This document shows, piece by piece, positions 2,476-11,821 of a stretch of DNA of 64,000 bases. The stretch's first letter is position 1; the number at the start of each line of letters is the position of its first letter. The notes beneath the pieces are model-generated. The model was not told the DNA's origin. It worked only from the letters and a program-made list of their open reading frames with translations, and did not search any database. The stretch is from an uncultured Bryobacteraceae bacterium. GTDB taxonomy: Bacteria; Acidobacteriota; Terriglobia; Bryobacterales; Bryobacteraceae. A program made the translations under genes and the position numbers. The DNA lies in NCBI GenBank assembly GCA_938003835.1, contig CALKXJ010000013.1, positions 124,001 through 188,000 of the forward strand, written 5' to 3'.

Positions 2476-3402
2476 GTGGCCTTGCGTTTCCGTCCGTGGC
2501 ATCTGGCGTGGCTGCTGATGCTGGTGGCGACCGGCGTGGTCGGTGGCGTGTACCTGTGGCGTGTCCGCTCTGCCTCGGAGGTGGCGCGGCTGGCGGCGCG
2601 CTTGCCTCGGGGTGAGTTCACGGTGGCCCACATCGACCTTCGGGCGCTCCGGGCCGCGGGCCTGCTCCGGGTGCTGGCGCGCCCCGACGGCGAGCAGGAG
2701 GCCGAGTATCTGGACTTTGTGCGGGAGACGGGCTTCGACTATGCCCGGGACCTGGACACGGTTGTGGCGGCATTCGGCGGCGAGGAGACCTTCGCGCTGC
2801 TGGTGGGCCGGTTCGACTGGAGGCGCCTGATCGCCTTCGTCAACGGGCGCGGCGGGGACTGCTACAACGGCTTCTGCCGGGTCCCGAGCGGCAAGCCGAA
2901 CCGGTGGTTCTCGTTCTTCGCCGTGACGCCGTCGATCATGGGGTTGGCCGTCAGCCGGGACTCCTGGGCCGCCAGCGCCCTGCTGGACGAGCAGGCGTCG
3001 GCCCCGCTCGGCCTGCCTCCGCCGCAACCGCTTTGGGTGACCTTCTCCGGCGCGACGCTCAGGCGGGCCTCCTGGCTTCCGGCGGGCACCCGGGCCTTTG
3101 TCACCCCGATCGCCGCCGCCGAGCGGGTCACCGTAGCGCTGGGCGCCTCCGGATCGGCCTATGAGGCGGTGCTCGAAGTCCAGTGCCGGACAGCGGAGGA
3201 GGCCTCCCGCATCGCCCGCCAGCTCACCGAAGTCACCGAGGCGCTGAACCGGATGATCCGGCTGGAGAACAAGGAGCCCAACCCGCGCGACCTGAGCGGC
3301 GTGCTGACGGCAGGCGTCTTCACGAGCCGGGAAACCCGCGTCGAGGGCCGCTGGCCGGTGCCGGCCGAGTTTCTTCAGGCCCTGGCCGAGGGTTCCGAGT
3401 GA
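2476..3402 (+). CDS. membrane-anchored protein of unknown function
   Basis: I do not recognise this family. The 308-residue product begins with a short basic stretch and one hydrophobic segment (about residues 9-29, WHLAWLLMLVATGVVGG). It is thus likely to be anchored in the inner membrane with the rest outside. The remainder is mixed alpha/beta without a motif I can name, and holds one CYNGFC pair of cysteines near residue 136 that could form a disulfide. It starts with GTG four bases after the DAHP synthase stop, with GAGAAGG overlapping that stop, so it is probably translated from the same attenuated transcript. Its last 28 bases overlap the convergent tctA. Confidence 0.75.
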   Translation: MALRFRPWHLAWLLMLVATGVVGGVYLWRVRSASEVARLAARLPRGEFTVAHIDLRALRAAGLLRVLARPDGEQEAEYLDFVRETGFDYARDLDTVVAAFGGEETFALLVGRFDWRRLIAFVNGRGGDCYNGFCRVPSGKPNRWFSFFAVTPSIMGLAVSRDSWAASALLDEQASAPLGLPPPQPLWVTFSGATLRRASWLPAGTRAFVTPIAAAERVTVALGASGSAYEAVLEVQCRTAEEASRIARQLTEVTEALNRMIRLENKEPNPRDLSGVLTAGVFTSRETRVEGRWPVPAEFLQALAEGSE

Positions 3403-4880
3403 GTCCGGGCACGCCAGGCCTTCCAGACGGGCCAGGCCAGGGAGGCGACCGCCGCCGCCAGTAACGCCACCACCAGGGGGCGCGCCAGCAGGGCGGACCA
3501 GTCGCCCCGGCTCAGGATCAAAGCACGGCGCAGGTTTGCCTCCATCATCGGGCCGAGGATCAGACCCAGCACCAGAGGCCCCACCGGCACGCGAGCCCGG
3601 CGGCAGACGAGGCCGAGAAGCCCGGCGCCGAACATCACCCAGACGTCCACCAGGCTGTTGTTCAGCGCATAGGAGCCCACCACGCCGAGTACGATCACCC
3701 CGGCCCACAGCCATGGTTCGGGGATGCGGAGGGCCCGAGCCAGGGGCCGCGCCCCGGCCAGCCCGAGGGCGAGGATCAGCAGAGCGGCCAGCAACATCGA
3801 GAAGATGATCGAGTAGACCAGCGCGCCGTGATCGCGGAACAGCAGCGGCCCGGGCTGCACCCCGTGAATGAGCAGCGCGCCGATGAGCACCGCCGAGGGC
3901 GCATCGCCCGGGATGCCTAGCGTCAGCATCGTCGTCATGGCGCCTCCGATGGCGGCATTGGCGGCGCTTGCCGAAGCCGCCAGGCCTTCGACGGAACCCT
4001 CGCCGAACTCCTCCGGCCGCCGGGAGACCCGCCGGGCTTGCTCCCAGGCGATCACCGAGGCGATGTCGCCGCCCGCCGCCGGAATGGCCCCTACCAGGGT
4101 GCCGGTGGCCGAGCCCAGCAGACCGGGCGCTGCCATGCGGCGTAGCTCGGACCAGCCCGGCCAGATGCGGCTCAGCGGCGGCGGCGCCAGGCCCGGGCCC
4201 GCCGTGCGCTCCATCATCCGGGCCAGCACCTCGCCGAGGCCGAACAGGCCGATCATGGCGGGCACAAAAGCCAGGCCGTCGAGCAGCTCGGCGCTGCCGA
4301 AGGTGAAGCGCGGATAAGCCGTCATCGGGTCCAGGCCCACGGTGGCCAGCGCCAGGCCGAGCATGCCAGCCAACAGCCCCGGAATGATCCGGCCGCCGGA
4401 GACGCCGGCCATGAGGCTGATGCCGAACACTGCCAGGGCGAAATATTCGGCCGGGCCGAAACGCAAGCCGAAGGAGGCGATCGGGAAGGCAGCCAGGGCC
4501 AGAAACAAGATGCTCGCGAACTGGCCCAGGAAAGCAAACAGGGAGTTGATGCCCAGAGCCAGTCCAGCCCGGCCGCGCCGCGCCAGCGCGTATCCGTCCC
4601 AGGTGGCGGCGATCGAGGCGGGTGTGCCGGGAATATTGATGAGCACGGCGGGAATGCCGCCGGCGGGAATGGCGCCGCAGTAGATGCCGATCAACATCGC
4701 CAGGCCCTGTTCGGTGGAGACCCAGAAGGTCAGCGGCGTCAGGATCGCGACCCCCATGGTGGCGGTCAGTCCGGGCAAGGCCCCGAAGACGGCGCCCAAT
4801 AATGTCCCGGCCAGCAGGAAGAGCAGGACGTCCCAAGCCAGCACCGCAGCCAGCCCGGCGGCAATTTCCGAACCGGTCAT
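3375..4880 (-). CDS. tctA: tripartite tricarboxylate transporter, large permease subunit TctA
   Basis: The large membrane subunit of a TTT-family secondary transporter importing a carboxylate delivered by the periplasmic TctC protein. The 501 residues match the family and form about a dozen hydrophobic segments. The signatures GALPGLTATMGVAIL, IYCGAIPAGGIPAVLINIPGTPAS and a second internal-repeat copy, LVGAIPAAGGDIASVIAW, are all visible. The ATG start overlaps the tctB stop by four bases (ATGA), so the three genes are translationally coupled. The last 28 bases overlap the convergent unknown gene. The substrate cannot be read from sequence. Confidence 0.94.
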   Translation of the reverse strand: MTGSEIAAGLAAVLAWDVLLFLLAGTLLGAVFGALPGLTATMGVAILTPLTFWVSTEQGLAMLIGIYCGAIPAGGIPAVLINIPGTPASIAATWDGYALARRGRAGLALGINSLFAFLGQFASILFLALAAFPIASFGLRFGPAEYFALAVFGISLMAGVSGGRIIPGLLAGMLGLALATVGLDPMTAYPRFTFGSAELLDGLAFVPAMIGLFGLGEVLARMMERTAGPGLAPPPLSRIWPGWSELRRMAAPGLLGSATGTLVGAIPAAGGDIASVIAWEQARRVSRRPEEFGEGSVEGLAASASAANAAIGGAMTTMLTLGIPGDAPSAVLIGALLIHGVQPGPLLFRDHGALVYSIIFSMLLAALLILALGLAGARPLARALRIPEPWLWAGVIVLGVVGSYALNNSLVDVWVMFGAGLLGLVCRRARVPVGPLVLGLILGPMMEANLRRALILSRGDWSALLARPLVVALLAAAVASLAWPVWKAWRARTHSEPSARA

Positions 4881-5296
4881 GGCAAGCCCACCCGCAGGCC
4901 GTATTGAAAGGCGGCCACGACGAAGAGGGTCAATCCCAGCGCCACCTGGACCGCTGCGCGCCAGCTCTGGCCCAGGCAGCGGAGATAGAGCGCGACAAAA
5001 AGAAGCGTCCGGGGGGCGAGTGGCACGCGCTCCCAGAGCGCGAGATAGCCGGCCAGCAGAAGCACGGTGAGGAGGACCGGTTTCAGTGGAGCCGCGCCAG
5101 GCGCCGGGCCGGGCCTCCGCCAGGCGAACGCAAGCAACAGGGCAGCGAGCGCCGCCATGACGGCTCCGATGACGCGGGGGAAGAAGCCGGGTCCGGGCAG
5201 CCCTCCCACACCCGGCGGAAACGTAGCGGCGGAGGTCAACAGGAGAAGCCCAACTACCAGGAAGGCGCTCGCGGCGGCGAAATCGCTGCGGTTCAC
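4877..5296 (-). CDS. tctB: tripartite tricarboxylate transporter, small permease subunit TctB
   Basis: Small membrane subunit of the TctABC transporter: 139 residues with four predicted membrane segments (FLVVGLLLLTSAATF, VIGAVMAALAALLLAFAW, VLLTVLLLAGYLALW, and a C-terminal AVQVALGLTLFVVAAF). The motif LPGPGFFPRVIGA is typical of TctB. GTG 5296 is preferred because it makes a GTGA overlap with the tctC stop and gives VNRSDFAAA just before the first membrane helix. A longer frame would add an arginine-rich stretch that is out of character. Confidence 0.88.
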   Translation of the reverse strand: MNRSDFAAASAFLVVGLLLLTSAATFPPGVGGLPGPGFFPRVIGAVMAALAALLLAFAWRRPGPAPGAAPLKPVLLTVLLLAGYLALWERVPLAPRTLLFVALYLRCLGQSWRAAVQVALGLTLFVVAAFQYGLRVGLP

Positions 5297-6261
5297 CGGG
5301 CGCCCCCTGCCAGCAGCTCCGGGATGGCTTTGCGGAAGAAGGCGGCCTGTGCCAGGGCGAACTCGCGGAACGGCTCGGGCTCGAGGAAGATTGCTTCCAT
5401 GCCCCGCTCCTGGCACAGCGCCTGAAATCGCGGGCTCGCGAAGGCGTTGCGGAAGGCGGCCACCAGTTTCGCCCTCGCCTCGGGCGCGAGACCCTTTGGC
5501 CCATAAAACCCGCCCCAGGCGCTGACGCCCAGCCGGTAGCCGGCCTCCGCGACGGCCGGTGTGTCGGGAAACAGGGGCGAGCGCGACTCGTCAAAGACCG
5601 CCAGCGCGCGCAGCGTACCCGCTTTGGCGTGGGGGCCCACCTCGCCCGTGCCCGCCACGGCGGCGTCGACATGGCCGCCGAGCAGCGCCGTCAGGGCCGC
5701 CGAAGAGCCTGAGAAAGGACAGTGAACCAGCCGGATGCCGGTCTCCCGTTCGAGCAACAACGCGTTGATGTGCCAGATCGAACCGGTCCCCGAGTTGGCC
5801 ACGATGTAGTAGCCCGGCCGGGCGCGAGCCGCCTGGAGAAAATCTTCCAGCCGGCGCCACGGTCCCGCCGCCCGCACGGCCAGGACGGGTTTGGTCTTCG
5901 TTACCAGGCACAACAGGTCCATGTCTTCCGGGCCGACGTTGGCGTAGCCCAAGGCCTTGACCATGGCGATCTCGACCGGTCCGTGACCGATCAGGTAGCC
6001 GGTGGGCGCCTGGCGGGTGACGTAGGAAAAGGCCAGGGCGCCGGCGGCGCCCGGACGGTTCTCGCAAACCACCGGAACGCCCAGCTCGGGCTCCATCAAG
6101 GCCGCCAACACGCGCGAGACCGTGTCGGAGAGCCCGCCGGGCGTCGACTGAATGACGAGCTTGATCTCCCGTGAGGGGTACGGCCCCGTGGGCCGGCCGC
6201 AGGCGGACGTGTGGGTGAGAGCCGCGGCCAAGGTCAACACGAGCGCCGCCGATCGCCGCAT
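5293..6261 (-). CDS. tctC: tripartite tricarboxylate transporter substrate-binding protein TctC
   Basis: Extracytoplasmic solute-binding subunit of 322 residues. It starts with a signal sequence (MRRSAALVLTLAAALTHTSAC) whose terminal TSAC is a marginal lipobox, so it may be a lipoprotein. The mature start has the TctC hallmark YPSREIKLVIQSTPGGLSD, then CENRPGAAG and NSGTGS substrate-contact motifs. It is the first gene of the operon, and TACAAT (6276-6281 complement) 14 bases before the ATG is a possible -10 box. Genes of this family are heavily amplified in some beta-proteobacteria. Here there is a single complete set, divergent from the GAF gene. Confidence 0.93.
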   Translation of the reverse strand: MRRSAALVLTLAAALTHTSACGRPTGPYPSREIKLVIQSTPGGLSDTVSRVLAALMEPELGVPVVCENRPGAAGALAFSYVTRQAPTGYLIGHGPVEIAMVKALGYANVGPEDMDLLCLVTKTKPVLAVRAAGPWRRLEDFLQAARARPGYYIVANSGTGSIWHINALLLERETGIRLVHCPFSGSSAALTALLGGHVDAAVAGTGEVGPHAKAGTLRALAVFDESRSPLFPDTPAVAEAGYRLGVSAWGGFYGPKGLAPEARAKLVAAFRNAFASPRFQALCQERGMEAIFLEPEPFREFALAQAAFFRKAIPELLAGGAR

Positions 6262-6331
6262 CGCAACCAGAGGCCATTGTAGGACGTCCGCGAGCTCTGG
6301 CTCTGCGGGCGGATTTGGGATAATAACGTCA

Positions 6332-6907
6332 GTGGCGCGAGTCAAGGAACTGGAGCAGCAGCTCCAGCGCACCGAGGAACAGCTCCGACTGTACCAGCAA
6401 GTGAGCCGGCTCATGGTGAAGGAGATGAGCCTCCAGGAGGTGCTCCAGAGCATCGTCTCCCTGGTGGTCGAGTTCATGCGGTGCGATTCCTGCCTGCTGT
6501 ATCTGGTGGACGGCGAGGAACTGGTATTGTGCGCTGCGCATCCGTCCACTCCGGCAGCCGGCAGCGTCCGGCTCAAGCTCGACGAGGGCTTGACGGGCTG
6601 GGTGGCTCGCGAACGCAGGCTCTTGGCCATCTCCCGCGAAAGCTATCTCGACCCCCGGTTCAAGTTTTTCCAGGGCTTGCCCGAAGACAGCTACGAAGCT
6701 TTCCTTTCGGCGCCGGTGATTGCACGCAATCGTGTTGTGGGCGTCATCAACGTGCAGCATCGGCAGCCGCACGCGCACACGGGCAGCGAGATGGAGATGT
6801 TGACGACGGTGGGCGAACAGGTAGGCTGTCTGCTGGCCCTGGCTCGCCTGGAGGGTGTGCCGGCCCAGGGCGCCCTGGCGCTTTCGCCGAGTTCCGTGGC
6901 GCCGTAG
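6332..6907 (+). CDS. GAF domain protein with N-terminal coiled coil
   Basis: A cytosolic sensor-type protein of 191 residues. Residues 1-30 (VARVKELEQQLQRTEEQLRLYQQ) form a heptad coiled coil, probably a dimerisation handle. Residues 35-175 are a GAF fold (LQEVLQSIVSLVVEFMRCDSCLLYLVD ... LTGWVARERRLLAISR ... SAPVIARNRVVGVINVQH). No output domain follows, so it may act on a partner; the ligand is unknown. GTG 6332 is preferred: GATAAT at 6319-6324 lies seven bases before it with no ribosome site, a leaderless arrangement seen at other genes here. A longer frame reaches back over tctC and looks like non-coding read-back. Confidence 0.85.
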   Translation: MARVKELEQQLQRTEEQLRLYQQVSRLMVKEMSLQEVLQSIVSLVVEFMRCDSCLLYLVDGEELVLCAAHPSTPAAGSVRLKLDEGLTGWVARERRLLAISRESYLDPRFKFFQGLPEDSYEAFLSAPVIARNRVVGVINVQHRQPHAHTGSEMEMLTTVGEQVGCLLALARLEGVPAQGALALSPSSVAP

Positions 6908-6919
6908 AGACGCGAGCTC

Positions 6920-8038
6920 ATGAGACTCTGGCCGGTGATCCTGGCCCTGCTGGCCGCCGGCGGAACGCCGTGTCGCGCCGGCGCGCGCTGGGCGCTCCAG
7001 TTCTTTCACGATGCTCTCGACTCGGAACTTGTCATCACCGACCTGGCCTTCCCCTCGCCGCGCACCGGCATCGCCGCGGGGTACCTCCTCGAGCGCGGCC
7101 GCGTGAAACCCCGCGTGCTTCTGACGCGCGACGGGGGGCAGAATTGGAGGTCGATCGAGACGCGCGAGTCCCCGCTGGCGCTCTACTTCCTCGAGGAAGA
7201 CCTCGGCTGGATGGTGACCGAACGCGGCCTGTGGGGCACCGCTGACGGCGGCGCCACCTGGACCAAGCTCAGCAACCTGAGAGGGCTGCTCCGGGTTCAT
7301 TTCCTGGACAGGCAGCGGGGCTTTGCCGTGGGACTGAAAAAGTCGGCATACGAGACCGCCGACGGAGGCCGGACCTGGAAGCGCCTGGCGGCGGCGGACC
7401 TGCCCGACTCGAACCCGGAGCGGACCGTGTACGGATGGATCGAGTTCGCCGGGCCGCACGTCGGTTCGATCGTGGGCTGGAGCTCACCGCGGCGGGAGCC
7501 GGAGGCGCAACTGCCGGATTGGCTGGATCCGGAGGCGGCCGAGAAGCGGCGCCAGTGGCCGACTTTCACGATCGTGCTCCAGACGAGCGACGGGGGCCGG
7601 AGCTGGCAGCACTCCACGACGTCGATGTTTGGAAGGATTACGCGGCTGCGCCGCACCCCGGACGGGCGTGGCCTGGCGCTGGTTGAGTTCCACGACGCTT
7701 TCGAGTGGCCGGCGGAGGTCTTTCGCATCGATCTCAGGGAGAACAGCACGGAACGCGCCTACCGGGAGAAGACCCGTGCGGTCACTGACGTGGTGCTGGC
7801 AGCAGAAACGGCCTATCTGGCGGCGATCGAGCCGCCGGGGAAGCTGCGCCAGACTCCGGTGCCGGGCCGGCTGGTAATGATCCGGAGTTCGAATCTGCGG
7901 GATTGGGAGGAGATGGAGGTGGATTACCGGGCATTCGGGCGGCGGGCGGTGCTGGCGGTGGGCGGCGACAGCGACGTTTGGGTGGCCACCGACACGGGGA
8001 TGATCCTGCGGCTGGAGGGGGAGGCGCCGCGCCGATAA
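6920..8038 (+). CDS. exported Ycf48-like / BNR-repeat beta-propeller protein
   Basis: The 372-residue product has a signal peptide (MRLWPVILALLAAGGTPCRAGA) and repeated blades containing Asp-box-like motifs: LTRDGGQNWRSI, TADGGATWTKL, TADGGRTWKRL, TSDGGRSWQHS. This pattern matches the photosystem II assembly factor Ycf48-like propellers that are common as secreted proteins of unknown role in Acidobacteria. No catalytic site is visible, so a binding or structural role is more likely than a hydrolase. It follows the GAF gene by 12 bases and is probably co-transcribed. A weak 7-bp inverted repeat (8035-8041/8058-8064) follows the stop. Confidence 0.82.
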   Translation: MRLWPVILALLAAGGTPCRAGARWALQFFHDALDSELVITDLAFPSPRTGIAAGYLLERGRVKPRVLLTRDGGQNWRSIETRESPLALYFLEEDLGWMVTERGLWGTADGGATWTKLSNLRGLLRVHFLDRQRGFAVGLKKSAYETADGGRTWKRLAAADLPDSNPERTVYGWIEFAGPHVGSIVGWSSPRREPEAQLPDWLDPEAAEKRRQWPTFTIVLQTSDGGRSWQHSTTSMFGRITRLRRTPDGRGLALVEFHDAFEWPAEVFRIDLRENSTERAYREKTRAVTDVVLAAETAYLAAIEPPGKLRQTPVPGRLVMIRSSNLRDWEEMEVDYRAFGRRAVLAVGGDSDVWVATDTGMILRLEGEAPRR

Positions 8039-8156
8039 AACAAAACTCCTCTCGTGCGTTTTATTCACACTTTCCCCTCCGCCCGGTTCCTGTAACAGAT
8101 TGATAAACAAGGAAAAATAAATTCTGGAAAAGCGGTGTTTTTCAATTCGATTTCAG

Positions 8157-8186
8157 TTGACTCCGCCGCCGTTTCGTTGCAAGATA
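8157..8186 (+). promoter_or_regulatory. putative promoter of the large structured RNA, with AT-rich upstream tract
   Basis: TTGACT (8157-8162) is a near-consensus -35. An AAGATA at 8181-8186, 18 bases on, is a weak -10. The preceding 120 bases (about 8040-8156) are strikingly A/T-rich for this genome, with AAGGAAAAATAAATT and GTTTTTCAATTCGATTT tracts that could serve as an UP element. The predicted start is close to the 5' strand of the closing helix of the RNA. Confidence 0.5.
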
Positions 8187-8769
8187 AGAGTGGCTCCAAG
8201 AGGTTCACCGAGCAGTGAGCCGGATGGGCCGTCAAGCTCCGGAAGCGGAGCCGGGAGTGACCGCAAGGTCATTCCGGATGAGCGCACCGGGGCAAAGGCG
8301 GAACATCCAGGCAAGCTTCGCCAACTCGGAGCGGCCGAGCGCTACGAGCCGAAGGGGGTAAAACCCCGACGGGGAGCGGCGGTCGCCGAGAGCGAGCGGG
8401 CGCATCAAGCTCACCGGGGGAGCCGGCTCCGGCAATGAACTGCCTCGTAAGTGGCCAGTTGCGAGGCAGGGAGTCGCGGCAGGGCGAGCCCGGTGGAAAG
8501 ATGCGTGGAGGCAACGGGGCAGGCCAGGAGCGATGACCCCTCCGCGGGCCGGCTCGCAAGAGCTGGGTCGCTGGGGGCGAGCGAAAGGCCGTTCCAAGCT
8601 TCCGGCTTCTCTCGGTTTGGGGCGAAGGCGCTGCACTTGATCCTGAGCGCTCCAAAGGCCCCGGGAGAGAGGCAACGCCCGAGCAACCAAGGCCGAGGGC
8701 CACGCCCGGGCCGTGCATGCCGGCTGGCGGGGACACTGCGGAGTGGGTCACTTGGAGCCACCTCTTTTG
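8186..8769 (+). ncRNA. candidate large structured non-coding RNA (about 580 nt)
   Basis: The two ends pair. 8190-8200 is the exact complement of 8751-8761 (11 bp), and four more pairs follow past a bulged C (8186-8189 with 8763-8766). Nested inside are 8212-8217 with 8734-8739 (6 bp), 8218-8223 with 8720-8725 (6 bp) and 8224-8226 with 8716-8718. Local hairpins include 8236-8241/8246-8251, 8254-8262/8267-8275 with a GCAA loop, 8325-8329/8335-8339, 8355-8358/8364-8367, 8440-8447/8462-8469 and 8549-8555/8560-8566 with a second GCAA loop. The 3' side runs into CTCTTTT. GNRA loops on this strand set the orientation. No reading frame here resembles a protein. I find no RNase P, tmRNA, SRP, 6S or group II domain V signature, so the family is unknown. 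Confidence 0.72.
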
Positions 8770-8796: not shown

Positions 8797-9675
8797 TCAG
8801 CGCACCCCGGCAGGCACCGCCCTGTTCTTCGCCTGGGCCACGTAGCGGTCCACGTAGGCGGCCAAGGCCTCCTCGAGCGGTCCCCGCGTATGAGTTTCCT
8901 GTCGTATCTTCAGCCCTTCGACAGACAACACAGGCAGCAGGCCACGCGTGGTCGAAGTGATGAACACTTCGTCGGCCTTCTCGAGATCGCCGAGCCGCAG
9001 CGGTTTTTCCCCGATCGTGATGCCCGGCACACGGATCTCCTCGAGCAGGATCTCGCGCGTGACGCCGGGCAGGCATCCGGAGCTCAGCGGCGGCGTCCAC
9101 ACTTGGTTTCCCTCGGCGGTGAAGATGTTGGCTGAGGTGCATTCGCTCACCTCGCCGCGCTCGTTCAGCAGGACCACCTCGTCGAGCCCTCTCGACTGCG
9201 CCTCTTCGAGCCAGGTGAGGTTGTGCGACCAGGAGAGGATCTTTGTCCCGGCGAAGGGCCAGGCCGCGAAGCGTGCGTTGGGCACTACGCCGAGCCGCGC
9301 GCCGGCGCCCCACTCTTTGAGGTTCGTGGTGAAGGCGATCAGATCGAAGTCCCGGCTGATGGCCGGGCCTTCCCAGAGCCCGCCGCGGTTGCGCACGAGG
9401 ATGACGCGCAGCGTCGCATCATAGGCGCCGTTGGCCTCCACGAGCTCGAGCAGCGGCTTCTCGATCTCCTCGATCGAATCGGGGAACGGAATGCGCATCA
9501 GCGCGGCGTCCCGGCGCATGCGCCGGTAATGCCGCTCGAAAGCGAACAGAACGCCGCGAATAACGCGGACAGTGGAGAACACGCCCCAGCCGTTCATCAG
9601 GCCCACTTGGCCGGGAGAGAGCAGGACTGCGCCGGAGTCGCAGATCTTGCCGTTGTGCAGCAAGTAGCGGTGCAT
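8797..9675 (-). CDS. class IV (fold-type IV) PLP aminotransferase / aminodeoxychorismate lyase-like
   Basis: The 292-residue enzyme belongs to the fold-type IV PLP family (branched-chain aminotransferase, D-amino acid aminotransferase, PabC). Visible signatures are GLMNGWGVFSTVRV near residue 26, RHYRRMRR, the TKILSWSHNLTWLEEA segment bearing the PLP lysine, EVSECTSANIF and SGCLPGVTRE. The reaction cannot be chosen from sequence alone; a PabC-like or D-amino acid role is as likely as BCAA transamination. TAGAAT lies nine bases before ATG with no ribosome site, suggesting a leaderless transcript. It faces the structured RNA tail-to-tail, so it is not that RNA's target in cis. Confidence 0.85.
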   Translation of the reverse strand: MHRYLLHNGKICDSGAVLLSPGQVGLMNGWGVFSTVRVIRGVLFAFERHYRRMRRDAALMRIPFPDSIEEIEKPLLELVEANGAYDATLRVILVRNRGGLWEGPAISRDFDLIAFTTNLKEWGAGARLGVVPNARFAAWPFAGTKILSWSHNLTWLEEAQSRGLDEVVLLNERGEVSECTSANIFTAEGNQVWTPPLSSGCLPGVTREILLEEIRVPGITIGEKPLRLGDLEKADEVFITSTTRGLLPVLSVEGLKIRQETHTRGPLEEALAAYVDRYVAQAKNRAVPAGVR

Positions 9676-9716: not shown

Positions 9717-10547
9717 CTAACGCCAGTTCGGAAATGCATCCCTGAGGTTTCGGGCGGTCTCCCGCAGCAGGTCCGGGACGCGCCGGGCGCGGCGCAGCAG
9801 GGCGTGAAGCAAAGCCTCCAGGGCGCTCTCGTCACCCTCGAGCCACTCCGGGGGGATGCGCCGGCAGGCGTCGTCGATGACCTCGTCGGGAAAATGCACC
9901 ACGCGCTCCAGCCAGGGCTGGAAGTCATCCAGGGAGCGCACCTGACGATAGACGGCAGGACGGAAGTAGAGCCCGGCGCGAGGCGCATCGACGAAGTCCC
10001 AATGCGGCCCGTTGAAGATGAAGCCGTGGTCGATCATCTGGGCGACGAAGGCGAGGCGCGCCGGCGTACTGGCGCCCGGCGCCCACTCGCGCACCGTCGA
10101 GCGGAAAAAGATGGCCTGGCGTACGTCGGCATTTCCGGTCCACTTGTCGAAGACCAGCGTGCCCAGGAAGTCGCGCAGGTTGACGACCCTCTCGAGCAGC
10201 AGGTCAGGTACGAAATCGTAGACCGCCAGCCGGTCGGGGTCGCCCGGGAAGCGGGAACCGAAATGCCGGCCGGCTTCGACGCTCAGGCGCCGGCCGCCGA
10301 GCTGGATGAAGAGCTCCGGATTCTGGGCCAGAAAGGCGGAGGTGAATTCGACGACGGCCGCCGCCGGTGCGGAGATCTCCAGGTACTCGAGGAAGACCGA
10401 GGCGATTAGCTCGTTGACGAGGATGCGGCGGTGCTGCGGGTTGTTCCGGAACTTGACGACATAGAAGTGGCCGTCGTCAGCTTCGACCAGGTGGGCCTGG
10501 GCGCCCCCGCGCATCTTCCGAACCAGTCGCCGGGCCAGAACGGGCAT
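9717..10547 (-). CDS. HipA-like kinase domain protein
   Basis: A 276-residue protein resembling the stand-alone HipA-like kinase family (HipA_2) rather than full HipA. Kinase-like landmarks can be read: a phosphate-loop-like GGAQAHLVEADDG, K32 in VVKFRNN, the catalytic-loop analogue FDKWTGNADVRQAIF, and MIDHGFIFNG in the position of the metal-binding Asp loop. There is no N-terminal HipA subdomain and no HipB-type antitoxin. In HipA the target is a glutamyl-tRNA synthetase; here the target is unknown. TAGATT 12 bases before the start may be its -10. It is divergent from a 73-codon gene across 53 bases. Confidence 0.78.
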   Translation of the reverse strand: MPVLARRLVRKMRGGAQAHLVEADDGHFYVVKFRNNPQHRRILVNELIASVFLEYLEISAPAAAVVEFTSAFLAQNPELFIQLGGRRLSVEAGRHFGSRFPGDPDRLAVYDFVPDLLLERVVNLRDFLGTLVFDKWTGNADVRQAIFFRSTVREWAPGASTPARLAFVAQMIDHGFIFNGPHWDFVDAPRAGLYFRPAVYRQVRSLDDFQPWLERVVHFPDEVIDDACRRIPPEWLEGDESALEALLHALLRRARRVPDLLRETARNLRDAFPNWR

Positions 10548-10875: not shown

Positions 10876-11373
10876 CTAGCGGCGCGCCTTCCGGGCGGCT
10901 TTCTTGACGGCCTTTTTGGCCGCTTTCTTCGCGGTCTTCTTGACGGCTTTGGCCACCTTTTTCGCCGTCTTCTTCGGCGCGGCTTTCCTGGCTGCGGTCT
11001 TCTTGGCCGCCGCCTTCTTGGCCGCCTTCTTCTTTGCGACGGCTTTCACCGCCTTCTTGCTGGCCGGGGCCTTCTTCGCTTTGGGTCGGGCCTTCCGGGA
11101 GGGGGCCGGGGCCTTGGCGACGGGCTTCCTGGGGGTGGGAGCGACCTCCGGCGCCGGCGGTTCGGCCGGAGGCGGAGGAGGGGCCTCGGCGGCGGGTGGG
11201 GCGGCAGGCACCGCCTCGGCGGTGCGGGCTGGCTCCATCACGATCTGTGCCTCTTCCTCCTCGTCGTGCTCGTACTGCACGATTTCGGACTCGATCTCGA
11301 CGGGACCTTCGTCAAAGCCGCTCTCTTCCCACTGGTCGGGGTCCGCGGGGAGAAACAGAACCTGCGCCATCAT
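10876..11373 (-). CDS. histone H1-like Lys/Ala-rich protein with acidic N-terminus
   Basis: Three regions are obvious in the 165 residues. Residues 1-50 are acidic (ESEIVQYEHDEEEEAQ), residues 55-85 are Pro/Ala-rich, and the last 80 are repeats of KKAAKKAAAK/KKTAKK type like the tail of histone H1 and bacterial H1-like nucleoid proteins. It probably binds DNA or RNA by charge; the acidic head may shield the tail or recruit a partner. ATG 11373 is chosen because CAGGAGG precedes it by six bases, and a second in-frame ATG follows directly. The low-complexity tail is encoded by repetitive GCC/AAG codons, so length variation between strains is likely. Confidence 0.85.
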   Translation of the reverse strand: MMAQVLFLPADPDQWEESGFDEGPVEIESEIVQYEHDEEEEAQIVMEPARTAEAVPAAPPAAEAPPPPPAEPPAPEVAPTPRKPVAKAPAPSRKARPKAKKAPASKKAVKAVAKKKAAKKAAAKKTAARKAAPKKTAKKVAKAVKKTAKKAAKKAVKKAARKARR

Positions 11374-11404
11374 TGCAGCCTCCTGTCGCGCGTGATCACC
11401 AGAT

Positions 11405-11432
11405 AGGATAACGCGTTTTGGGTTGGGCGCAA
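11405..11432 (-). promoter_or_regulatory. putative promoter of the H1-like gene
   Basis: On the minus strand TTGCGC (11427-11432) and TATCCT (11405-11410) are 16 bases apart, about 30 bases before the start codon. The stretch is less GC-rich than its surroundings and has a run of A/T (AACATTTTTTGTG on the plus strand) just upstream. Confidence 0.5.
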
Positions 11433-11632
11433 ACATTTTTTGTGGACTTCGTCTTCTTGGCCGGCTCCTGCTAGACTGAAGAACGGGGCTTGCGTTGGAC
11501 CACTCCTTGCCCGTCGCTGCATCACGGGCCGGAAGTTCTCCCGCGATCCGCTGCCGGCGCAGCGCCTTCGCAACGCCAGTTTTCAAGCGGCTGAGAAGCC
11601 GGGGCCCTCGAGGAAGGAGGAACCGAGACGCT

Positions 11633-11821
11633 ATGGCAGGACGCGGAAGAACGAGTTTCCAGAAGCGCCAAAAAGAACAGGCTCGTCTCGAGAGGCGCCA
11701 GCAGAAGGCCGCCCGTAAGCTCGCCCGGAAGGCCGCCAAGCAGAGCCAGCAGGGTTCGGCCGACGCGCCGGAGGAGTTCGAACCTCTGTCGGGCCTCGAG
11801 CGCCATCCCACAGGCGGCTAG
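11633..11821 (+). CDS. small basic protein
   Basis: A 62-residue protein with a strongly basic helical N-terminal two thirds (TSFQKRQKEQARLERRQQ, then RKLARKAAK) and an acidic/neutral tail (DAPEEFEPLSGLE). Small basic proteins of this style are conserved and functionally unassigned in several phyla; nucleic-acid or ribosome association is a guess. ATG 11633 is preferred over an upstream frame start at 11495 because AAGGAGG (11614-11620) precedes it and the extension is arginine-rich noise. About 150 bases separate it from the nearest -10-like TAGACT (11472-11477). Confidence 0.7.
   Translation: MAGRGRTSFQKRQKEQARLERRQQKAARKLARKAAKQSQQGSADAPEEFEPLSGLERHPTGG

Follow-up and report, generated by a model that had tools for sequence, protein, structure and literature searches.

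A large structured non-coding RNA of the Bryobacterales with kink-turn-like modules and a covarying palindromic loop

Introduction

Only a few bacterial RNAs of great size and structural complexity have been described, and what they do has long been an open question. Some are found in characteristic surroundings: the gene oapA adjoins ole, and the ROOL and GOLLD RNAs occur in a phage or prophage context. Kink-turns are sites of L7Ae-type proteins. The dimerisation initiation site of HIV-1 is a hairpin loop that carries a 6-nucleotide palindrome, through which two copies of the RNA form a kissing contact.

The OLE RNA is about 600 nucleotides long, is multi-branched, includes a kink-turn and forms a dimer composed of RNA only (PMC12286853; PMC9723947). 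This kink-turn is bound by the protein OapC (PMC9723947). The kissing loop L9.3 of OLE is symmetric and covaries between palindromes, and it is this covarying-palindrome argument that supports symmetric kissing loops in both OLE and GOLLD (PMC12286853). GOLLD and ROOL are large ornate RNAs that assemble into homo-oligomers with kissing loops among their contacts, whereas the structure obtained for the raiA-motif RNA (ModT) in that work is monomeric (PMC12286853). The latter RNA is reported from Bacillota and others in the accessible part of PMC11706538. Profiles for OLE, ROOL and GOLLD are held by Rfam (PMC12286853).

Here we describe an RNA encoded in a 64,000-nucleotide stretch of DNA from an uncultured Bryobacteraceae bacterium, which is called the window below. 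The original prediction for this locus, made from its sequence alone, was that of a structured non-coding RNA of large size and unknown family that recalls OLE, ROOL and GOLLD.

A gene for a large structured RNA

The plus strand of window positions 8186-8769 (584 nucleotides) has a predicted minimum free energy of -326.7 kcal/mol, with a z-score of -6.75 against 100 dinucleotide shuffles. Folding of the opposite strand is weaker (z = -3.12). Among 129 distinct homologues, defined in the next section, the plus-strand frames contain 5.6-5.8 stops on average and none is open in any copy, which bears out the original statement that there is no protein-like frame. Of the minus-strand frames, one is open in 8 and another in 4 of the 129 homologues, and the gaps in this set mostly have lengths that are not multiples of three.

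There are no matches to Rfam 15 at gathering thresholds across the whole window, and at E ≤ 10 there are only four chance matches, all to unrelated families. At 20 loci with other full-length members there are likewise none at gathering thresholds, and two unrelated sub-gathering matches appear at E ≤ 1. Window positions ~8190-8768 encode a large structured non-coding RNA. The expectation that its family would be unknown to Rfam agrees with these searches, and covariation is very strong in alignments of both 48 and 129 sequences. Smaller details noted at the outset are also present, namely two GCAA loops, an AT-rich tract, the sequence TCTTTT and the sequence TTGACT, the last of which is a conserved -35 box. 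What had escaped the first reading are five kink-turn-like modules, the helix P3, a covarying palindromic loop and a DnaA-box-like element.

Distribution of the RNA

A blastn search of 200 genomes of the order with the window stretch gave matches at E ≤ 0.01 in 84 genomes, some of which rest on single short matches, and some of these short matches are chance. Many of the 84 contain the same four blocks in the same order. A profile made from the first alignment finds the RNA in 59 of the 64 loci that were read, and 53 of these copies are full length (580-705 nucleotides, median 612, mean pairwise identity 57%). The RNA is absent at the fetched place in the other five loci (L069, L077, L081, L085 and L087). 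One further locus, taken from a 25-nucleotide blastn match (L028), gave no alignment over the RNA and was dropped.

Three sets of sequences are used below. Alignment A1 holds 48 of the 53 full-length copies, with five omitted as divergent or long (L043, L047, L062, L063 and L064), and alignment A2 holds 45 of the 48 sequences of A1. Of 202 profile hits, 176 extend to both ends of the RNA, and the 129 distinct sequences among these make up the larger set. It includes paralogues of one genome, excludes the 57 named loci described below, and has an effective number of 99 sequences.

A covariance model of arm D, called R1, has matches at E ≤ 1e-4 in 147 of 257 genomes of Bryobacterales, which include 97 of the 163 good genomes and represent 60 of 84 genera. 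Because R1 covers one arm, it would miss copies that have no arm D. All matches lie within two families, f1 and f2, and among the 257 genomes of the order R1 finds nothing in genus g17 or in family f3. A 15-mer pattern led to 14 loci in 13 genomes of g17 and f3, none with the RNA, where one or two matches were read per genome. There are also eight genomes without an R1 match in which the aminotransferase gene that commonly neighbours the RNA is present, with no RNA within 1.5 kb. Since g17 and f3 show no copy, it appears that members of the Bryobacterales can live without this RNA, and these two groups should be useful for phylogenetic profiling of partner proteins.

In a sample of 396 genomes from the Acidobacteriota, the RNA is convincing only in two members of the order (G000 and G006), and a search of the rest of this sample with R1 followed by the full-length profile gave no credible homologue. 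Nine other genomes of the sample with weak R1 matches were counted as chance. Their matches to the full-length profile lie around arm D only and have E-values of 5e-5 at best, with one chance-level piece elsewhere (in L122), and the best of the nine (L121) overlaps open stretches of 408 and 452 codons. A very divergent homologue may exist elsewhere in the phylum.

The exact 19-mer GGGTCACTTGGAACCATTT from the 3' end of the RNA occurs in 57 named loci, and the RNA is present in 51 of them. The titles of these loci give Bryobacterales, Bryobacteraceae, Solibacteraceae, Solibacter, Acidobacteria, Acidobacteriia, Acidobacteriales or Terriglobia, and there are two odd titles, Arcobacter and Acidimicrobiia. 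The six loci without the RNA are from Companilactobacillus (five) and Streptococcus (one). In the Companilactobacillus loci (L170, L189, L191, L211 and L212) the 19-mer perhaps belongs to a conserved coding stretch. No match to the window's copy was found by blastn in 72,556 plasmid and 50,697 phage records, a search whose sensitivity for a divergent copy is limited, and a 17-mer from the 3' end of the RNA is found in no viral contig.

Secondary structure model

The consensus predicted by RNAalifold for the 48 sequences of A1 has 131 pairs, 109 of which have changes on both sides. Pairing is possible in 90.9% of cells as compared to 73.2% in shuffled alignments and 36-46% when the structure is slid along the alignment. 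There are 1098 double-change cells versus 353 in shuffled alignments, and none of 500 shuffles gave as high a count. For the 129 copies, mutual information and RNAalifold support a consensus of 187 pairs. When this consensus is imposed on the copy in the window, both bases are present for 173 pairs, and 136 of these are standard.

The architecture predicted from this covariation is that of a closing helix that ends in a U-run, two multi-way junctions, the arms A to E and a sixth arm, F (Table 1). Support for the long-range helix P3 is particularly clear, with 115 double-change cells among the 129 sequences and a z-score of 23.6 for its outer pair. The pairs of arm D, which is the source of model R1, also covary.

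The long-range helices that had been proposed originally fare differently in the alignments. The outermost, consisting of 8190-8200 with 8751-8761 and four pairs past a bulge (15 pairs in all), is upheld, since 96.4% of its cells are paired in the 48 sequences. Four of the six pairs proposed for 8212-8217 with 8734-8739 are retained as P2, and the other two are not. The third helix, 8218-8226 with 8716-8725, fails as a whole, with 65.8% of its cells paired and four of its nine pairs broken in at least 25 of the 48 sequences. Part of it survives, in that 8219-8221 can still pair with 8723-8725 in nearly all 48 sequences. What keeps these three pairs possible is conservation together with G-U changes, and they show a single double change between them. 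In the present model, 8720-8725 pair locally with 8709-8715, and 8219-8226 sit in a helix formed by 8219-8237 and 8294-8312.

Table 1. Coordinates of the RNA gene, its predicted structural and regulatory elements, and its neighbours in the window.
Feature	Position	Strand	Remarks
Ycf48-like gene (PSII_BNR)	6920-8038	+	Upstream neighbour, outside the RNA; Pfam
DnaA-box-like 9-mer TTATTCACA (TTWTNCACA)	8061-8069	+	About 125 bp upstream of the RNA
AT-rich upstream region	8070-8156	+	Family motifs GTAA, TGAnAACA, ATAnA, TGnGGAAAA (60% consensus)
Predicted -35 box TTGACT	8157-8162	+	TTGAC here in 123 of 127 homologues
Predicted -10 box CAAGAT	8180-8185	+	17-bp spacer; in the family CATAGT, CATGAT, CATATT, CATCAT
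Large structured non-coding RNA gene	~8190-8768	+	Start and end placed from promoter and terminator
P1, closing helix	8191-8208/8743-8760	+	17 pairs, 92.6% paired, 8 with double changes (129 sequences)
P2	8213-8216/8735-8738	+	97.2% paired, 4 of 4 pairs with double changes (129 sequences)
Arm A with module M1	8219-8312	+	M1 complete in 45 of 48 copies; that of the window is eroded
P3, closing helix of the junction that joins arms B, C and D	8313-8317/8604-8608	+	98.4% paired, 5 of 5 pairs with double changes
Arm B with module M2	8318-8401; bulged strand 8340-8350, opposite strand 8371-8378	+	Complete in 43 of 48 copies, the window's among them
Arm C with module M3	8403-8505; 8431-8440 and 8469-8475	+	Complete in 44 of 48, window included
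Arm D with module M4	8507-8603; 8527-8540 and 8575-8586	+	Complete in 44 of 48, window included
Arm E with module M5	8612-8696	+	M5 in 40 of 48, eroded in the window's copy; helix covaries
Arm F	8704-8732; hairpin 8709-8725, loop 8715-8720 GCAUGC	+	Self-complementary loop
P1 3' strand and U-run, terminator-like end	8743-8768	+	Mean of 7.1 U in the 10 nucleotides after GGARCC (129 homologues)
Class IV aminotransferase gene	8797-9675	-	Downstream convergent neighbour, outside the RNA; Pfam

Kink-turn-like modules

Each of the arms A to E carries, at the base of a hairpin, a 3-nucleotide bulge followed by GA on one strand opposite GA on the other and a closing pair. Judged by sequence, the modules M1 to M5 are complete in the numbers of copies given in Table 1. 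All five are complete in 29 of the 48 copies, four in 14 and three in 5. M2, M3 and M4 persist in the window's copy, from which M1 and M5 have been lost. A further symmetric GGA/GAA loop lies two pairs away in M1 and M4 and, less clearly, in M5.

At the level of sequence, these modules have the features of the kink-turn motif, namely a 3-nucleotide bulge and tandem G.A/A.G pairs flanked by C and NC helices. The C helix of M1, M4 and M5 comprises only about 2 bp before it continues into the GGA/GAA loop. Most copies have A.C as the second pair of this helix in M1, and RNAalifold places the M1 helix in a different register. For these reasons a kink in three dimensions is proposed here as probable geometry rather than as an observation.

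Proteins of the L7Ae family (PF01248) were found in none of 41 genomes, which are the window's own and those of 40 relatives; in a control, matches were found in 7 of 14 genomes, Bacillus subtilis included. The absence of such proteins from the 41 genomes leaves recognition of the kink-turns by a protein unsupported, and suggests that the modules fold alone or with another protein.

A palindromic loop that covaries

The hairpin loop of arm F has 7 nucleotides in 93 of the 129 copies and holds a 6-nucleotide palindrome. The aligned site of this hexamer is palindromic in 109 of the 129 copies (84%) and not in the remaining 20. Among 557 six-column stretches along the RNA, the runner-up has 25.6% palindromes, which are of a single recurring type. 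There are 17 copies among the 129 whose loop has no palindromic hexamer in any register.

Hairpins of fixed register are available from 112 of the 129 copies, with 11 hairpins of 19 nucleotides and six others omitted, and 102 of these 112 are palindromic. The palindromes are GCAUGC (86 copies), GCUAGC (10), GUAUAC (2), GCGCGC (2) and UCAUGA (2), and the non-palindromic hexamers include GUAUGC (4), GCAUGA (3), GCAUGU (2) and GCUAGA (1). When the hexamer differs from GCAUGC, it is again a palindrome in 16 of 26 cases, as compared to 1.1 expected from column shuffles and a maximum of 6 in 10,000 of them. Arm F hairpins that are one base longer add the palindromes UCUAGA and GUUAAC. On a tree built without the loop, GCUAGC requires six changes, GCGCGC and UCAUGA two each, and GUAUAC one.

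Because neighbouring bases of a tight loop cannot pair with one another within one chain, this covariation points to pairing between two copies of the RNA. The signature strongly suggests that the RNA forms a homodimer via the loop of arm F. A palindrome could alternatively serve a DNA-binding protein, and this possibility counts against the dimer reading.

Promoter and upstream elements

The RNA gene is predicted to have its own sigma70-type promoter. When spacers of 15-19 bp were scanned for the best-scoring -10 hexamer, which is mostly CATnnT, the spacer was 17 bp in 107 and 18 bp in 16 of the 123 homologues with TTGAC. Given the positions of the promoter and the U-run, transcription probably starts near the first pair of P1 and stops after its last, so that P1 would double as the terminator stem. 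A promoter of its own, together with neighbours that vary between loci, also agrees with the original view that the RNA is not the 5' leader of another gene.

The conserved 9-mer upstream of the RNA corresponds to TTWTNCACA, which is the DnaA consensus according to the available part of PMC5835720. It is found between positions -135 and -80 in 109 of the 127 homologues with enough upstream DNA, at a median position of -124, whereas mononucleotide shuffles give a mean of 0.175 and at most 2 occurrences in 200 shuffles. The fifth base is free (C in 50, T in 25, A in 18 and G in 16). A second box, TNCAC, is located 11 bp further in 74 of the 109 and is missing from the window. In 400 kb sampled from the relative G039, the 9-mer occurs four times when both strands are counted. 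A perfect TTWTNCACA is missing in 18 of the 127 homologues, and other regulators could bind the element.

Gene associations and copy number

The RNA most commonly lies next to the class IV aminotransferase gene, which is found downstream in 28 of the 53 full-length loci. The Ycf48-like gene is upstream in 25 of the 53 and ends within 400 bp of the RNA in 24, and a GAF gene is a neighbour in 19. None of the five commonest neighbour families is present in 12 of the 53 loci. Since there is no neighbour family common to all 53 loci, no partner gene seems obligatory. Seven neighbours in the window were scanned with Pfam, and there is no reverse transcriptase or nuclease among them as would accompany a group II intron or a HEARO/omega RNA, nor is there an Rfam match.

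Other features of the surrounding DNA may be recorded here. A gene for a HipA-like kinase (PF20613) adjoins the aminotransferase gene at 9717-10547, and its family (F4) is found in 19 of the 53 loci. Genes for TctA- and TctC-type components of a tripartite tricarboxylate transporter are located on the minus strand at 3375-6630, as assigned with Pfam. A minus-strand open reading frame at 10876-11811 has a lysine- and alanine-rich C-terminus with AAKK repeats, which by eye resembles histone H1-like tails.

The genome from which the window derives has a single copy of the RNA by blastn, and 31 of the 147 genomes with R1 matches have more than one match. The two copies were compared in nine genomes, in one of which (G048) they are cut by contig ends. 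In the other eight, the copies are 73.6-95.8% identical over 580-756 bp, and homology between them ends at the 3' end of the RNA and no more than ~130 bp upstream of it. In seven of the nine genomes, one copy lies next to a Ycf48-like, GAF or aminotransferase gene; G088 has none of these three neighbours, and G038 has only other neighbour families. In genomes with two full-length copies, the upstream motifs are by eye kept in both although the intervening DNA differs. This pattern fits duplicated genes that are kept alike by selection or gene conversion.

In three pairs of copies (L223/L224, L227/L228 and L231/L232) identity is ~95% and homology stops at or near the RNA and its promoter, a pattern that resembles concerted evolution after duplication of the RNA gene. 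Four contigs of G048 (L217, L218, L219 and L220) end inside the RNA, and because assembly breaks at repeated copies in this way, copy numbers may be underestimated in draft genomes. G163 has a third, 5'-truncated copy in tandem (L221, 6846-7281), ~0.8 kb behind a full one, which is perhaps a decaying duplicate.

Possible functions

The reading that we consider probable is that the locus is an independent gene for a large trans-acting RNA that serves as a homodimeric scaffold, which resembles OLE in style and is not its homologue. This is the best reading because it uses all of the evidence. Probably RNA polymerase with sigma70 transcribes an RNA of ~580-610 nucleotides from the promoter TTGAC-N17-CATnnT, and transcription would end as P1 forms ahead of the U-run, by pairing of its 3' strand with the 5' end. 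The five kink-turns would then bend arms A to E so that they pack around the two junctions, and the arm F loops of two molecules would pair through their palindromes to give a symmetric homodimer or a higher multimer that acts as a scaffold. The DnaA-box-like site would allow the gene to be switched with the level of DnaA and hence with the state of replication or growth. Control by DnaA is suggested by this element and is the only functional lead, and we know of no comparable regulatory lead for another large ornate RNA, nor is there one among the literature matches listed. As a tentative extension, the RNA could represent a new class of RNA machine, a homodimer or multimer with five kink-turn arms and one kissing-loop arm that dispenses with L7Ae and whose synthesis is set by DnaA. 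If this proposal is true, chromosome replication is coupled to an RNA complex in Acidobacteriota.

A monomer that acts as a folded scaffold or regulator, with a palindromic loop that serves, for example, a symmetric protein, is an unlikely alternative, although one with a precedent in the raiA-motif RNA, which is monomeric beside the multimeric OLE, ROOL and GOLLD (PMC12286853). The copies that have no palindromic loop hexamer are consistent with it. However, adjacent bases of the loop switch together between several palindromes, and they have done so more than once on the tree. Pairing of these bases within a chain is sterically impossible, and such switching would hardly be compatible with a DNA-binding protein that has a single specificity. 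It is quite unlikely that the elaborate fold positions the active site of a ribozyme, a guess that has also been made for OLE in the accessible part of PMC11332333. The size of the RNA and its many invariant bases outside helices are in keeping with catalysis, but the kink-turn-like modules account for many of these invariant bases, and there is no Rfam match at gathering thresholds, known ribozyme families included. A weak match to Twister-sister (E = 7.9, 14 bits versus a cut-off of 34) is at chance level.

The confinement of homology between two copies to the promoter and the RNA, along with the genomes that have more than one match, might indicate a selfish or mobile RNA element. We regard this as very unlikely given that seven of the nine two-copy genomes compared have one copy beside the usual neighbours, that there is no plus-strand frame in the RNA, and that the upstream motifs are kept in both copies as in a duplicated gene that is kept alike. 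A cis-acting role as leader, attenuator or 3' untranslated region of the Ycf48-like or the next gene is highly improbable. It would account for the co-oriented Ycf48-like gene that often ends just upstream, but not for a promoter with TTGAC in 123 of 127 homologues, the convergent gene that comes next in the window, the 12 loci without the commonest neighbours, or the second copies located elsewhere. The idea that the locus is part of a replication origin and the RNA a by-product is scarcely credible, even though a DnaA-box-like site and an AT-rich region lie upstream. The origin was rejected on the basis of five genomes (G000, G039, G104, G059 and G038) that have a parS-like site 4-20 kb from dnaA and in which the RNA is far away, either on another contig or more than 2 Mb from dnaA and the parS-like site. 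In G039, moreover, the GC skew, which is noisy as sampled, is positive over the 8 kb to either side of the RNA, with no switch at the RNA, and several genomes have two copies of the RNA.

Comparison with known large RNAs

The RNA family is apparently undescribed. No description of it is present among the literature matches listed, in a search that mostly excludes subscription journals, nor in the accessible part of PMC2864571. Table 1 of the latter lists the candidate RNAs Solibacter-1, Soil-1, Acido-1 and Acido-Lenti-1 from Solibacter, soil or Acidobacteria. Acido-1 and Acido-Lenti-1 have Rfam accessions (PMC2864571), and in this they differ from the new RNA, which has no Rfam match. Solibacter-1 and Soil-1 have no Rfam accession in that table (PMC2864571) and may be the same RNA.

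With the raiA-motif RNA, the new RNA shares the property of being a large structured bacterial RNA, and the two differ in the oligomeric state that we predict here. The HIV-1 dimerisation initiation site is an unrelated viral RNA that shares only the principle of a palindromic kissing loop. GOLLD and ROOL are similar in being large and ornate with kissing loops, which are a prediction for the new RNA, but the new RNA has no Rfam match and is chromosomal in the genomes read. Their phage context also finds no parallel in the phage and viral records searched, within the limited sensitivity of that search.

The original comparison with OLE, ROOL and GOLLD is apt as a likeness of style and not as a sign of homology. 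This likeness is closest for OLE, which is similar in length, branching, the possession of a kink-turn and dimerisation, the last being a prediction for the RNA described here. The loop of arm F and L9.3 of OLE are alike in their sequence signature. Differences are nevertheless numerous, as there is no match to the OLE covariance model in Rfam 15, and one kink-turn is spoken of in the accessible parts of PMC12286853 and PMC9723947, compared to five kink-turn-like modules here. OLE is associated with an L7Ae/OapC-type protein, whereas PF01248 is absent from all 41 genomes searched, and OLE is found in Bacillota, whereas the new RNA is found in Acidobacteriota and has a DnaA-box-like promoter element. 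Alongside OLE, GOLLD and ROOL, the RNA adds an independent family from a phylum common in soil, with a strong prediction of homodimerisation from sequence. It combines five kink-turn-like modules with the absence of the usual kink-turn protein from the genomes searched, and an element in its promoter suggests a link to DnaA.
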